Below are positions 3,818 to 58,365 of a stretch of 64,000 bases of DNA, piece by piece (position 1 is the first letter of the stretch; each line of letters opens with the position of its first letter). The stretch is taken from NCBI GenBank assembly GCA_023544565.1, contig JAMJFS010000001.1, positions 1 through 64,000 on the forward strand, in the 5' to 3' direction. Under the pieces are notes generated by a model, which did no database searches, was not told where the DNA came from, and saw only the letters and a program-made list of their open reading frames with translations. This stretch comes from Methanosarcinaceae archaeon (GTDB taxonomy: Archaea > Halobacteriota > Methanosarcinia > Methanosarcinales > Methanosarcinaceae). The translations under genes and the position numbers were made by a program.

Positions 3818-3847
3818 ACAGGATTGACATCTTGTCACTTTTTTCAT

Positions 3848-3911
3848 AGTATATAATTTATAGAATTATATAGTCCGAGTCAATCTGAGCGTCAGCGAAG
3901 ATTTTCTCGTT
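3848..3911 (+). repeat. REP-like element copy 2 (type A), tandem with copy 3
   Basis: Same layout as the copy at 145: AT palindrome, GTCCGAGTCAATCTGAGCG, then CGAAGATTTTCTCGTTG. It directly abuts the type B copy at 3912. Confidence 0.9.
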
Positions 3912-3973
3912 GTATATAATTTATAGAATTATATAGTCCGAGTTAATGCGAACGAAGTGAGCATTTTCTTGTT
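3912..3973 (+). repeat. REP-like element copy 3 (type B)
   Basis: The AT palindrome is the same as in copy 2, but the hairpin core is TTAATGCGAACGAAGTGAGCAT instead of the type A core. This shows two core variants sharing one framework. Confidence 0.9.
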
Positions 3974-3978
3974 CACAA

Positions 3979-15333: not shown

Positions 15334-15495
15334 TTAACCGCAGATACACGCAAATGAACGCAGATGCGCTCCGCGTTATTTTATGTTTGATGCACTTTCT
15401 GTTGCAACAAAATCTGCGTTACCTGCTACGCTGTAAGCGTGGCAGGCACTCAACTGCGATAGCAGATGAGTGTATCTGCGTTCATTTGCGGTTAA
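15334..15495. repeat. 162-bp CGCAGAT-type inverted repeat with nested double hairpin
   Basis: The outer arms are TTAACCG...GCAAATGAACGCAGAT at 15334-15365 and the matching ATCTGCGTTCATTTGCGGTTAA at 15474-15495, the left arm carrying an extra 8-10 bp. The interior contains TTACCTGC, an ACGC-loop-GCGT hairpin, GCAGGCACTCAACT and GAGTGTA. The same interior module is nested in the MITE-like element at 34702. It lies between the lipoprotein gene and thiL. No coding potential. Confidence 0.85.
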
Positions 15496-24803: not shown

Positions 24804-24828
24804 TTTGATCACTTATCACGTTTTTAAT

Positions 24829-24888
24829 AGTATATATTTTATAAATATATAGTGCAAGTTAATCTGAGCATAGCGAAGATTTACTCGT
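24829..24888 (+). repeat. REP-like element copy 4 (type A variant)
   Basis: A TATATATTTTATAAATATATA palindrome, then GTGCAAGTTAATCTGAGCA and CGAAGATTTACTCGT. Divergent copy between the bactofilin-like gene start and the end of fba. Confidence 0.75.
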
Positions 24889-24894
24889 ATTACT

Positions 24895-25803
<909 letters not shown>

Positions 25804-25833
25804 TTATAAAGACTACTCTTTCGTCCTTTGGTG

Positions 25834-25906
25834 GCAGTTTGGGGTTGTAGTTTGAGGTTGCAGTTTGAGGTTGCAGTTTGAGGTTGCAGTTTGAGGTTGC
25901 AGTTTA
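25834..25906 (+). repeat. Tandem 13-bp repeat (GCAGTTTGAGGTT)n
   Basis: Five full units plus a partial one. The first two units differ by one or two bases and the others are identical. The array ends exactly at the stop codon of the neighbouring ATPase gene, a recent slippage or expansion tract. Confidence 0.9.
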
Positions 25907-27241
25907 ACTGGTAATGATATCATCAAGTCGCTGCTTTGGCCCATGATTTATATCGTTTTCATCGTTCGACCATTCATAGATCGGTTTTATTGTGATGGTT
26001 TTATTATCCATTATCAGAGTCTCTTTTTCATTTTCAGTTATTATGAGTCCTGTATCAAGATTATGAGTGTTCATCGCTTCTATCAATCCTCTGATTTCAC
26101 GTTTTCGTGTGCTTTCATCTTTCAGGGTCAATGTTACCTGAATGGCAGTTGTGATGCCTGATCCCTCTTTGATTATAAAATCACATTCATAGTGATCTTT
26201 GTGATAATATATGTCCATGTTCTGTCGTTTCAGGTTCATGTGCACAAGATTTTCAAGCAGTCTGCCTCGATTTTCTGAAAATCTGAATGATATTGAATTT
26301 ACCAGTCCTGTATCAAGGCAGTAGATTTTCTTGGGGTTTATGATCTGTTTTTTCACTGAGCGATCGAATTTAGTTAATGTATATGTAAGATATGAATCCT
26401 CAGAAAAATTCAGATATTCTTTTACTGTTTCAGAGGATATTTCCAGTGTTTTTGCTATGTTTGAATAAGAGAATGGTTTTGCTATGTTCGATATAATGAA
26501 ATAAAGAAGGTCAAATACATCCTTGTTGTTCCTGAGATTGTTTGGATAGATGATATCTTTTAGGTAGATAGTCTGGAAATAATTTTTAAGGATTTCCTGT
26601 TTAAGTTCACTGTCGTTTTCCAGCACAACCCTTGGATAAGCACCGAACTCAAGATAGTTATTGAAATGCTGGAGTTTTTCAATGGTTGTTGGTTTGTGGA
26701 CATCGTTAAAGTCCAGATACTCTATAAACGACAGGGGATGAACTGTTATTGAAAAGTACCTGCCTGAGAGTCTGGTGCTGATCTCTTTGTTTATAAGGGA
26801 TGATGTTGAACCTATGAGTATTATCTTTATGTTCTTTGTAGTATCATGTAGGGTTTTGATAGTCTGCACCCAGTAATCGTAATTCTGTATCTCATCTATG
26901 AAAAGATACAGTTTTGAAGGTTTCTTCAGTGCCAGATGTTGCTCTATTATCTCGGTAAGATATGTGGGGTCCTTAGATTTGCTCTGGAACAGAGGTTCAT
27001 CAAGGTTGATGAATAGTATGGATTCAGGCGGCACATTGTTGTCCAGCAGATCTTTTATCACCTGATAAACAAGTGTTGATTTTCCGGTGCGTCTTGCACC
27101 TATCAGGAGGAGGATTTCTTCTGTCTTGAGGTATTTCATGACCTTCGGATACCATCGCAACCTGTCAATTCCGGTCTCAAACGGTTTTTCGAACCACCAT
27201 GGGTTCTGCCGTTCAAGGGCAATTTTCGCAAGTTCATCCAT
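25904..27241 (-). CDS. AAA_14/DUF4143-type ATPase
   Basis: A 445-aa protein of the archaeal/bacterial AAA_14 plus DUF4143 family. Walker A is GARRTGKS at 48-55. Walker B-like LYLFIDEIQNYDYW and sensor ILIGSTSSL follow. The C-terminal DUF4143 part has a nuclease-like core (ENLVHMNLKRQ, YECDFIIKEG, AIQVTLTL) similar to restriction-type PD-(D/E)xK folds. The family's function is unknown, often linked to mobile or defence DNA. The start MDELAKIALE (27241) fits the family; an upstream start at 27268 is possible. Palindromes at the promoter suggest autoregulation. Confidence 0.85.
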   Translation of the reverse strand: MDELAKIALERQNPWWFEKPFETGIDRLRWYPKVMKYLKTEEILLLIGARRTGKSTLVYQVIKDLLDNNVPPESILFINLDEPLFQSKSKDPTYLTEIIEQHLALKKPSKLYLFIDEIQNYDYWVQTIKTLHDTTKNIKIILIGSTSSLINKEISTRLSGRYFSITVHPLSFIEYLDFNDVHKPTTIEKLQHFNNYLEFGAYPRVVLENDSELKQEILKNYFQTIYLKDIIYPNNLRNNKDVFDLLYFIISNIAKPFSYSNIAKTLEISSETVKEYLNFSEDSYLTYTLTKFDRSVKKQIINPKKIYCLDTGLVNSISFRFSENRGRLLENLVHMNLKRQNMDIYYHKDHYECDFIIKEGSGITTAIQVTLTLKDESTRKREIRGLIEAMNTHNLDTGLIITENEKETLIMDNKTITIKPIYEWSNDENDINHGPKQRLDDIITS

Positions 27242-27292: not shown

Positions 27293-27395
27293 GATTTTAT
27301 ATTAAATCGTCGGTTATAATTGATAAATTCCATCATGCCTGCACATTTCGCCTGTTCCTTTATGAACTGCAACATTGATATCTGTGTTTCCACTA

Positions 27396-27610
27396 ACCCA
27401 TTTACCAACCATTTACCAACCATTTACCAACCCACTTACCAACCCACTTATCAACCCACTTATCAACCCACTTACCAACCCACTTACCAACCCACTTACC
27501 AACCCACTTGCCAACCCACTTGCCAACCCACTTGCCAACCCACTTGCCAACCCATCTACCAACCCATCTACCAACCCATCTACCAACCCATCTACCAACC
27601 GACTTACTAA
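27396..27610 (+). repeat. 12-bp minisatellite (CCCACTTACCAA)n
   Basis: It begins as 11-12-bp CCATTTACCAA units and continues as about fifteen 12-bp units. Variants are blocked: two TATCAA, three TACCAA, four TGCCAA, then four CATCTACCAA units. Because 12 is divisible by 3, frames stay open on both strands (YQPT, TNPL or VDGL repeats). No start signal supports translation. Confidence 0.93.
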
Positions 27611-27647
27611 TTTTGTCAATTAGGGGGTAAACTTGGAGAACATAGTA

Positions 27648-28546: not shown

Positions 28547-28580
28547 GTTGAAAAAATAACTGGATTTTGGAATTGTGCCA
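28547..28580 (+). mobile_element. Solo right end of MITE-like element
   Basis: TTGAAAAAATAACTGGATTTTGGAATTGTGCC-like sequence matches the right ends at 34859-34887 and 41112-41140. No matching left end or target duplication was found. Confidence 0.55.
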
Positions 28581-28582
28581 TT

Positions 28583-28644
28583 ACGAGAAAACGCTCACTT
28601 TGTTCGCGTTAACTCGGAGTACATAATCCTATAGATTATATACA
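28583..28644 (-). repeat. REP-like element copy 5 (type B)
   Basis: Minus orientation: ACGAGAAAACGCTCACTTTG, GTTAACTCGGAGTAC, then the ATAATCCTATAGATTATA palindrome. It directly follows the solo MITE end. Confidence 0.8.
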
Positions 28645-28665
28645 ACAAGAAAGCACATTGGTGTG

Positions 28666-34385: not shown

Positions 34386-34573
34386 TTATGCTCACCCCGC
34401 ATGATTTTATAATATGATTTTATCGCATATATCACTTTTTTTGCAATGGTTTGTGCTGAAACCGGCCAAATGTAAAAACATCCATAAAGATCATAACCAA
34501 TGCAAAATAAATTAGATCAGTTTATCTGAATAAAGCGGAACACATCGAAAAAGAAAGTTTCTGTTTCATTTAA

Positions 34574-34634
34574 ACGAGAAAATTCTCCCTTCGGTCGAAT
34601 TGACTCGGACTATATAATTCTATAAATTATATAC
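34574..34634 (-). repeat. REP-like element copy 6
   Basis: ACGAGAAAATTCTCCCTTCG, CGAATTGACTCGGAC, then the TATATAATTCTATAAATTATATA palindrome. A third core variant (ATTCTCCCTTCGGTCGAAT). Confidence 0.85.
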
Positions 34635-34695
34635 AACAAGAAAATGCTCACTTCGTTCGCATTAACTAGAACTATATGTTTATAAAACATATACT
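34635..34695 (-). repeat. REP-like element copy 7 (type B), MITE target
   Basis: AACAAGAAAATGCTCACTTCG, GCATTAACTAGAACTATATG, then TTTATAAAACATATAC. The MITE-like element is inserted at its end. Confidence 0.85.
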
Positions 34696-34701
34696 ATTAA
34701 A

Positions 34702-34887
34702 AACACTGTCCCATTTTACAGTTATTTTCAAGACTCTGATTCACACAGATTTACGCTGATTTAAGGTTGCATCCGCGTAAATCAGCGTTACCTGCACGCC
34801 CTTCAGGCGTAGCAGGCACTCAACTCCGCAAGGAGTGTATCTGCGTCTAATAAAATCGTTGAAATAACTGGATTTTGGAACTGTGTC
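34702..34887 (+). mobile_element. MITE-like element, 186 bp, with 9-bp target duplication
   Basis: Left end AACACTGTCCCATTTTACAG and right end, read in reverse, GACACAGTTCCAAAATCCAG form imperfect terminal inverted repeats ending in GTTATTTTCAA/TTGAAATAAC. ACTATTAAA occurs on both flanks (34693-34701 and 34888-34896). The interior is a CAGATTTACGCTGATTTAA/CGCGTAAATCAGCG palindrome into which a roughly 48-bp double-hairpin module (TACCTGC...GCAGGCACTCAACT...GAGTGTA) is nested. No coding capacity. Confidence 0.8.
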
Positions 34888-34905
34888 ACTATTAAAAAAA
34901 GAGAA

Positions 34906-40840: not shown

Positions 40841-40903
40841 TTGTTTCATGCTGACAATTTGTCAGAATTGCAATAAATGCAATACAATTTTAAAAAAAAG
40901 ATA

Positions 40904-40963
40904 CAAGAAAATGCTCACTTCGTTCGCATTAACTTGGAGTACATAATCCTATAGATTATATAC
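40904..40963 (-). repeat. REP-like element copy 8 (type B)
   Basis: ACAAGAAAATGCTCACTTCG, GCATTAACTTGGAGTAC, then the ATAATCCTATAGATTATA palindrome. In tandem with copy 9. Confidence 0.85.
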
Positions 40964-40964
40964 A

Positions 40965-41174
40965 ACGAGAAAATCTTCGCTGACGCTCAGATTGACTCGA
41001 ACGACACTGTCCCATTTTCCAGTTATTTTCAAGACGCAGATTCACACAGATTTACGCTGATTTAAAGTTGCATCCGCGTAAATCAGCGTAAATCTGCGTC
41101 TAATGAAATTGTTGAAATAACTGGATTTTGGAATTGTGCCGACTCGAACTATATGTTTATAAAACATATACAAT
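40965..41174 (-). repeat. REP-like element copy 9 (type A), interrupted by MITE
   Basis: ACGAGAAAATCTTCGCTGAC and CAGATTGACTCGAAC at 40965-41002 continue after the insertion as GACTCGAAC at 41141 and TATATGTTTATAAAACATATA to about 41171. Removing 41003-41140 and one GACTCGAAC restores a normal copy. Confidence 0.85.
41003..41140 (+). mobile_element. MITE-like element, 138 bp, target duplication GACTCGAAC
   Basis: Left end GACACTGTCCCATTTTCCAG and right end, read in reverse, GGCACAATTCCAAAATCCAG. The interior palindrome CAGATTTACGCTGATTTAA...CGCGTAAATCAGCG matches the copy at 34702, but the nested double-hairpin module is absent. An exact 9-bp duplication flanks it (40994-41002, 41141-41149). 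Inserted inside a REP-like repeat. Confidence 0.85.
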
Positions 41175-41188
41175 AAAAAAGAAGTTGC

Positions 41189-42608: not shown

Positions 42609-42649
42609 ATTTATATCCTCCACAATTAAATTTTCTTATTGTGCGTTTT

Positions 42650-42713
42650 TCATAGCATATATTTTACAAATATATAGTGAGAGTTAATGCAAACGAAGTG
42701 AGCATTTTCTCGT
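42650..42713 (+). repeat. REP-like element copy 10 (type B)
   Basis: ATAGCATATATTTTACAAATATATA, then GTGAGAGTTAATGCAAACG and AAGTGAGCATTTTCTCGT. Upstream of dnaG, in tandem with copy 11. Confidence 0.8.
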
Positions 42714-42774
42714 AGTATATGTTTTATAAACATATAGTGCAAGTTAATCTAAGCGTTAGCGAAAATTTTCTTGT
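42714..42774 (+). repeat. REP-like element copy 11 (type A, decayed)
   Basis: AGTATATGTTTTATAAACATATA, then GTGCAAGTTAATCTAAGCG and TTAGCGAAAATTTTCTTGTT. Confidence 0.8.
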
Positions 42775-44145
42775 TTGAAGCCCATGCAAGGCTTGTTTTA
42801 CATTATCGAGTAAATCCTTCTATGCAATTGAATTAACTCAGATGCCTTGTATTTTATACAAGGGATCCGACAAAGTCGGATTGACATAATTTTACATTAT
42901 GTCATACATACAAAAATAGCAGAATAAAAATAATTTACAACATTGATTGATCAGGAAAATAGTTTCTGGCATATCCATACCAGTCAGAACTGATTTTCCC
43001 TCAAATAATAATACTGTGTTTGTACAATGTCCTGTACAAGTTGTTGTTCGTGTTTTTATATGTCGAACTTTTTACACAATGCCACAATAGAAACAGTGAG
43101 TGTAAATGTTTTTGCATCATGCTGTTTGCATATTAGATCCGATATGAACACAACTCATTTATTGTTGAATTGCCAATAATCCGAAACAAAACCATCCTTT
43201 TTGTAATTGCAGTCAAGTAGACTGTTATGAATGCCTATGCTCCTAGAATATTAAGAGTTTTGATTTAAAATTTTTGTGGAAATCTTGACAAATATTTTGT
43301 CAATGCCCATTATCGTATCTTTTTTTATCTGCTAAAACCTCATACTGTAAATATGCTCTCTTGTGTATATGAAATTTGAATTTTATTATGATGTTGTAAA
43401 TTAAATATTACTAATGATTCTAACTATTATTGTAAATGTGATCATACCAATGAAATGTTTAAGCGTTTAGTTACGCTGTTCATTGATTTTTAATCACGAA
43501 TGTAATCTGCATTGAGTGATTACAAATTGTAATAAGTGGTTGAAGGTTAATAAACTTGTGGTTTTTTATCCCAAGTTTGACGCTTATATTTCTTGCTGAT
43601 TGTATCCTTTATTTATCAGTTCCATAATTCGTTTTTTAAGACTTTTTTTCTCCATCTAATTTGACAGATAGATTGTAGTCTGTTGAATTCGATTTTTATG
43701 ATTTTTAGCTTATTTTTAAACTTGCAATTTGACAGTTAAAACAGGTAAAATCAAAACACATTTTTTATTCCCATGCTTATTGAAACTCAATTAGTTGCTC
43801 AGTGATCAGTACAACAAAATCATCAAAAAATCCAACAATGAATTTGACAGTTACGGTAGATTACGTGAAAAATGAGATAAAATTTCATTTATGCGAATTT
43901 TGACCCAATGAATACACTGATTTTGAGGAGAAAAACAGGAAATTACGTAGATTCTAAGTAGATAATTTTTCAACTGTCAAATAGGTTTTCCTGACAATAT
44001 ATGAGAATTATAGGGCAAAAGAGCAGACATTCTCTTCAAGAAAGAGTGATAACTGTCAAACTTGGGTTATAGAGGATTTCGGTAAAAATATGTGGTAACA
44101 AAAATTCGAAAACATTATATAACAGTGTGAATATATGTTTAATTG
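42775..44145. other. AT-rich gene-free region with TTTGACAGTT iterons; candidate origin
   Basis: About 1.4 kb between dnaG and the flavoprotein gene with no plausible gene in any frame. It contains TTTGACAG(TT) at 43660, 43728 and 43843 on the plus strand and AACTGTCAAA at 43972 and 44051 on the other, plus an eight-bp-arm palindrome TTGACAAA-tat-TTTGTCAA near 43285. The adjacent cdc6 and dnaG make a replication origin plausible, but no standard ORB was recognised. Confidence 0.5.
44114..44122 (+). promoter_or_regulatory. TATA box for candidate small RNA
   Basis: TTATATAAC centred about 27 nt before 44145, where a long terminal stem begins. The spacing is right for an archaeal promoter. Confidence 0.5.
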
Positions 44146-58161: not shown

Positions 58162-58280
58162 ATGGTATGGGTTACGACCCATCAACCATTCCGGTCGGTT
58201 TCGATCTCATACATAACCTAACGAGAGTATGTATAATGCTCTCTCGCTATCTGGCAGGTTGAGCATCGGCCCTATTTTTT
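58162..58280 (+). ncRNA. Candidate structured RNA downstream of roadblock gene
   Basis: Three nested helices can be drawn. ATGGT-ATGGGT (58162-58172) pairs with ACCCAT-ca-ACCAT (58177-58189) around a UACG loop. AACCT (58215-58219) with AGGTT (58256-58260) encloses CGAGAG-CTCTCG (58222-58227, 58241-58246). The element ends in CCCTATTTTTT. It could be an independent small RNA or a structured 3' end. No known family was recognised. Confidence 0.45.
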
Positions 58281-58345
58281 CATAGTATATATTTTATAAA
58301 CATGTAGTCCGAGTCAATCTGAGCGTCAGCGAAGATTTTCTCGTC
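58279..58345 (+). repeat. REP-like element copy 12 (type A)
   Basis: ATAGTATATATTTTATAAACATGTA, then GTCCGAGTCAATCTGAGCG and CGAAGATTTTCTCGTCGGG. Confidence 0.85.
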
Positions 58346-58365
58346 GGGCAATAATCAATAACAAC

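Follow-up and report, generated by a model that had tools for sequence, protein, structure and literature searches.

Two short intergenic copies in an archaeal contig share imperfect inverted ends and differ by about 48 bp. This raises the questions of whether they are mobile elements, which transposase would have moved them, and whether one copy represents the state before, and the other the state after, a nested insertion. The analysed stretch of DNA (the window) comprises positions 1-64000 of contig C11 in a 1.78-Mb, 72-contig genome assembly, the genus of which is probably Candidatus Methanovorans of the methane-oxidising ANME-3 archaea. It is very likely that the two copies, A and B, constitute a MITE in which IS ends surround a captured GCAGAT palindrome, that the parent is an IS of about 1.6 kb, and that a separate module of about 52 nt is nested in A.

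Results

Copies A and B in the window

The following features were determined for the two copies.

34693-34701, no strand: left target duplication of A, ACTATTAAA
34702-34887, plus strand: MITE copy A, 186 bp, with the nested module
34702-34731, plus strand: left terminal inverted repeat of A
34791-34838, minus strand: double-hairpin module of 48 bp, nested in A's right arm; minus-strand sequence ACACTCCTTGCGGAGTTGAGTGCCTGCTACGCCTGAAGGGCGTGCAGG
34859-34887, minus strand: right terminal inverted repeat of A
34888-34896, no strand: right target duplication of A, ACTATTAAA
40994-41002, no strand: left target duplication of B, GACTCGAAC
41003-41140, plus strand: MITE copy B, 138 bp, module-free (ancestral form)
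41003-41032, plus strand: left terminal inverted repeat of B
41033-41100, plus strand: interior palindrome of B, GCAGAT/ACGCTGAT units
between 41091 and 41092: empty module site in the interior palindrome of B
41112-41140, minus strand: right terminal inverted repeat of B
41141-41149, no strand: right target duplication of B, GACTCGAAC
28554-28579, plus strand: lone right end of the same element family, adjoining an R2 repeat

The coordinates of A and B in a preliminary description of the window were exact, and the perfect 9-bp duplications that it claimed were located in the register of the ends in both copies, ACTATTAAA with A and GACTCGAAC with B. The probability of a random exact 9-bp match in a fixed register is 1/262,144 per site. 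The shared inverted ends were also present in both copies; the letters quoted in the description are those of B, and the termini of A are AACACTGTCCCATTTTACAG / GACACAGTTCCAAAATCCAG. In B, an inverted repeat of about 30 bp on each side flanks the palindrome of GCAGAT/ACGCTGAT units. The 48-bp excess of A over B is a single contiguous block, accompanied by one adjoining T-to-A change. This block, 34791-34838 on the minus strand, corresponds to the extra double hairpin of about 48 bp described for the first copy and is absent from B.

No ORF of at least 80 aa was found inside the 138-186-bp elements. Every copy in the window is intergenic: A is situated between the genes of a radical-SAM protein and a TfuA-like protein, and B between those of a Cdc6 protein and a Toprim protein. 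The fold of A was much more stable than those of shuffled sequences (z = -6.4, 0/200). Elsewhere in the window, tandem arrays were observed at 27384-27635 and 25830-25918; their periods are 12 bp and 13 bp, and they are intergenic or border on genes.

Spread of the MITE, target duplications and empty sites

With B as the query, all seven ANME-3 (Methanovorans) genomes (7/7) proved to contain copies, as did four genomes of family f2, which belongs to the same order. Perfect target duplications were determined at thirteen distinct MITE sites, with a length of 9 bp at ten sites and of 8 bp at three, and all their sequences differ (e.g. GGTTGTAAC, GTCCGTTGC, GTGTTTAGC, ACTAAAATA, CTATAATAT, AACGGCAAT, GATCTAAAG and TTTAAATCC). 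Further copies with matching ends and varied target duplications, proposed earlier as a check, were thus found. The perfect and different duplications at many sites exclude a chance origin of the flanking repeats, which the preliminary description had named as a possible refutation.

The proposed comparison with empty sites was likewise productive, and the empty sites hold the duplicated word once. For the insertion L106, the empty site is represented by other copies of the repeat that it entered; for L140 of genome G004, by the orthologous place in G003; for L104, less exactly, by G001 and G004; and for B, by intact R2 repeats (paralogues) in the window. The copies on contigs C29, C44 and C55 of the genome under study are without target duplication, so some of its copies are rearranged or old. 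Judged by these sequence features, A and B are a real MITE, non-coding and multicopy, with ends common to an IS. The literature search, mostly outside subscription journals, gave no paper naming the MITE or the module.

Two tandem arrangements were recorded in other genomes. Nine degenerate MITE-like ends with an exact spacing of 645 bp form a large tandem array at G005:C223, 262-5481 (L131). A contig end at G000:C52:1-113 (L014) consists of 20-bp tandem repeats, GATTTACGCAGATTTACACT, whose units are also those of the MITE interior.

The parent IS and its transposase

The transposase was reached through an ORF situated behind a matching end at C26:12902. IS with the ends of the MITE were represented by L042, L043, L044/L072, two copies probably from Methanosarcina and one decayed copy in the genome under study. 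The full-length IS of the relatives are 1610-1652 bp long with ends such as GGCACTATCCCAAAATCCAGTTAT, and the IS ends deviate from the MITE-derived pattern by at most 2 mismatches. Relatives in ANME-3 and Methanosarcina have the transposase of about 435 aa in intact form. The decayed copy retains 259 of about 435 codons before the break, together with both ends and the 9-bp duplication GTATGATAT. The longer, disrupted ANME-3 copy L044/L072 is flanked by CTCCTACAG, and the two copies of G016, a genome suggested to be Methanosarcina, by the 8-bp duplications TTCAGCAC and CTGGGTCC; two further ANME-3 copies have no duplication. Hence the full-length IS with the same ends, for which a search had been recommended, exists and carries duplications of 8 or 9 bp. 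The earlier statement that no transposase is visible holds for the window, but neither for the genome, with its decayed copy, nor for the relatives, with their intact copies. No intact transposase of the parent type was detected in the own assembly, which is 92.5% complete in 72 contigs.

The transposase contains CxxC...CxxC pairs and the motifs HYDEQ, TDFYSSY and ATNN..EN. Its matches to Pfam DDE_Tnp_IS240 and MULE were weak and sub-threshold, and its structure model, which is poor (pLDDT 49), has a local RNase H-like strand order around the first two acidic motifs. On the grounds of the motifs, these DDE matches and the strand order of the weak model, the parent was called a putative DDE-type IS. 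With the profiles of IS1, ISL3, IS6, IS66 and IS256, the best scores were 14-27 bits against cut-offs of 100-180. Searches for a name in NCBIfam, Pfam, PDB and annotated plasmids resulted in weak or unnamed relatives only. The parent thus appears to be a DDE-type IS below the cut-off of every curated family.

The MITE very probably consists of two ends of this IS enclosing a captured GCAGAT-type palindrome. It would be moved in trans by the transposase of the parent and joined to target DNA at cuts staggered by 9 bp.

Target preference for the R2 repeat

R2, a palindromic repeat that is abundant between genes, has at least 49 genomic copies, frequently arranged as tandem pairs, and its middle segments are interchangeable (TCTTCGCTGACGCTCAGA or GCTCACTTCGTTCGCAT). 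Its positions in the window are as follows.

144-208, 3847-3974, 24819-24892, 28582-28652, 34573-34705, 40902-40972, 42644-42777 and 58274-58347: R2 repeats
34635-34701, plus strand: R2 repeat, in the end of which A is situated
40964-41002, plus strand: left part of the R2 repeat cut by B, the right part being at about 41150-41181

R2 adjoins 7 of the 12 MITE or IS ends in the genome, and four of these 7 ends lie at R2 positions 31-39, GACTCGAAC or variants. With R2 making up about 0.3% of the genome, this association is far beyond chance; the probability is about 1e-11 by a crude estimate and about 2e-7 if just one fifth of the genome is available. Insertions in this genome favour R2. In the relatives, the sites that were read by eye were mostly not R2.

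Capture by a second MITE

At about 15 loci of G002, G001 and G005, the MITE was found at one place inside a second MITE, which indicates that the composite of about 224 bp was amplified as a unit. The second MITE, which may be of the IS630/Tc1-mariner type, has the ends TAGTGTCG(A/T)GTCAAC, mostly in a C|TA...TA|G context.

L110-L122, L127 and L133-L134 (G002, G005, G001): composite loci
C10:33860-34048: composite locus in the genome under study

An end of the second MITE family, CTAGTGTCATGTCAATGATATAATGTCG, was also observed in the window at 119-146 on the minus strand, directly adjoining an R2 repeat.

The double-hairpin module

Units of 48-52 nt, ACACTCACCTCCTACGGAGTTGAGTGCCTGCTACGCCCGnAAGGCGTGCAGG, form the family of which the module is a member; the length is 48 nt in A and typically about 52 nt. 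Each unit is composed of two adjacent imperfect hairpins without a spacer. In 36 copies, 95.5% of the stem cells pair, and seven pairs are changed on both sides compared with 1.4 in shuffles; divergent versions keep the stems while the letters differ. The module occurs in about 60 distinct contexts across Methanosarcinales. It is common in ANME-3 and in some family-f2 genomes, with 37 copies in G166, and rare in the remainder of the order, the sampled Methanosarcina-like genomes having none. Outside the order, 52 genomes sampled from families f6 and f7 of the class gave no copy. No Rfam family scored above its gathering score. One copy in the window lies outside the MITE.

15422-15473, minus strand: module copy, CTGC/GCAG version, between GCAGAT units

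The module sits inside GCAGAT- or GCAGAG-type repeats, never with a target duplication, and its orientation is fixed relative to the target. Of 35 scorable cases, 32 have two flanks of matched type (GAT/GAT or GAG/GAG; Fisher p = 4e-7), and removal of the module restores the period of the host repeat. At the junctions, a GCAGA-like word precedes the module on its left, and GCAGG stands at its right end. Head-to-tail stacks with a period of 52 were detected on G001:C93, G004:C61 and G005:C207.

Entry of the module into the MITE

Other genomes hold the MITE in its module-free 138-bp form, so B represents the ancestral state. The module is located in the right arm of A and C44 and in the left arm of C29, which implies at least two entries into MITEs. 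The proposal that one copy shows the state before and the other the state after a nested insertion was therefore supported by the widespread 138-bp form and by C29 with the module in the other arm; B shows the earlier state and A the later one. The perfect duplication and the module of A are consistent either with movement of a module-bearing MITE or with later arrival of the module. As the mechanism, we infer a later, precise and duplication-free insertion into A between GCAGA(T/G) units. It would have been carried out by an IS200/IS605-like single-stranded DNA transposase acting on the hairpins, or by conversion from module-carrying GCAGAT repeats.

According to the first of these explanations, the module is a passenger of the IS200/IS605 or REP/RAYT type, mobilised by a Y1 (HUH) transposase that cuts a GCAG-like tetranucleotide beside hairpins. 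Features of such passengers, namely hairpins near the ends, a short junction word and no duplication, are present in the module. The two imperfect hairpins, the lack of duplication, the GCAG-like junction words, the fixed orientation, the tandem arrays and the one Y1 transposase gene of the genome all agree with this explanation, but that gene, at C3:21604, is ordinary and TnpA-like, with no module copy at its ends. The Y1 passenger is possible, yet we consider it doubtful. The own-genome enzyme was rejected as the partner of the module, as the ends of the sole Y1 gene are unlike the module.

Gene conversion, in which short-homology recombination would have swapped the GCAGAT arm of the MITE for a genomic GCAGAT repeat already containing the module, was judged unlikely. 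It would fit the MITE interior, itself a GCAGAT repeat of the same unit type as the hosts of the module elsewhere. It would also fit the T-to-A change next to the module in A and the further changes beside the module in C44. Copy A has TAACGC there, which often follows GAT-type modules on the right, and B has TTACGC. However, no flanking sequence was imported in C29, because the flanks of its module, CACACAGAT / TTACGCTGATTTAA, are identical on both sides to module-free B. Moreover, the module also occurs in GCAGAG-type repeats, which share little with the GCAGAT repeats.

A structural role for these intergenic repeats, as terminators, regulatory RNA or attachment sites, with their shared ends and flanking repeats being incidental, is highly improbable: the intergenic position of all window copies, the strong fold of A and the covarying stems of the module, as in functional RNA, are in its favour, but the differing perfect 9-bp duplications at many sites, the empty sites, the full IS with the same ends and the lack of Rfam matches refute it for the MITE as a whole, and an RNA role may apply to the module.

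Discussion

MITEs derived from IS are known in archaea, e.g. SM1-SM4 of Sulfolobus solfataricus (reviewed in PMC10969869). The present MITE is similarly short, non-coding and multicopy, with IS inverted ends, target duplications and presumed movement in trans. It differs in its Methanosarcinales/ANME host, in a parent IS below the curated cut-offs and in a GCAGAT interior that receives a second module. The preference for an abundant extragenic palindromic repeat, here R2, is shared with bacterial IS families that strongly prefer REP sequences (Tobes and Pareja 2006, PMC1525189). Those cases concern bacterial hosts and other IS families, whereas here the MITE prefers R2 too and most sites of the relatives are not R2.

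The module is the more interesting part of the finding. A precise insertion inside another repeat, HIP1, is described for SDR5 of cyanobacteria (Elhai et al. 2008, as cited in PMC4390886). By that description, SDR5 and the module are alike as tiny modules placed precisely inside another repeat. As far as the cited account goes, the 52-nt double hairpin, the archaeal GCAGAT/GCAGAG repeats and the 52-bp tandem arrays set the module apart. With the REP/REPIN elements and their RAYT transposases (PMC3733652, PMC3116915) the module has in common short palindromes, often paired, and a conserved short word at the foot. It differs from them by the absence of a GTAG tag, by its fixed repeat context and by no dedicated RAYT gene being found alongside. 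In its hairpins, its lack of duplication and a GCAG-like word at each junction, the module resembles IS200/IS605 or REP chemistry.

We tentatively suggest, as a plausible reading held at slightly below even confidence, that Methanosarcinales harbour, in the 52-nt double hairpin, a site-specific mobile unit that is independent and among the smallest known. It would enter GCAGA iterons without duplication, stack head-to-tail and hitch-hike on a MITE that in turn lies in a further repeat, by means of an unrecognised enzyme.

The genomes of ANME archaea are repeat-rich and hard to assemble, and the MITE, its parent IS and the target repeat together provide a readable insertion record for these uncultured organisms. 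For a tiny repeat moving without target duplication, B, A and C29 offer a clean natural before-and-after comparison, which bears on how such repeats, like SDR5 and many REP-like families, spread.
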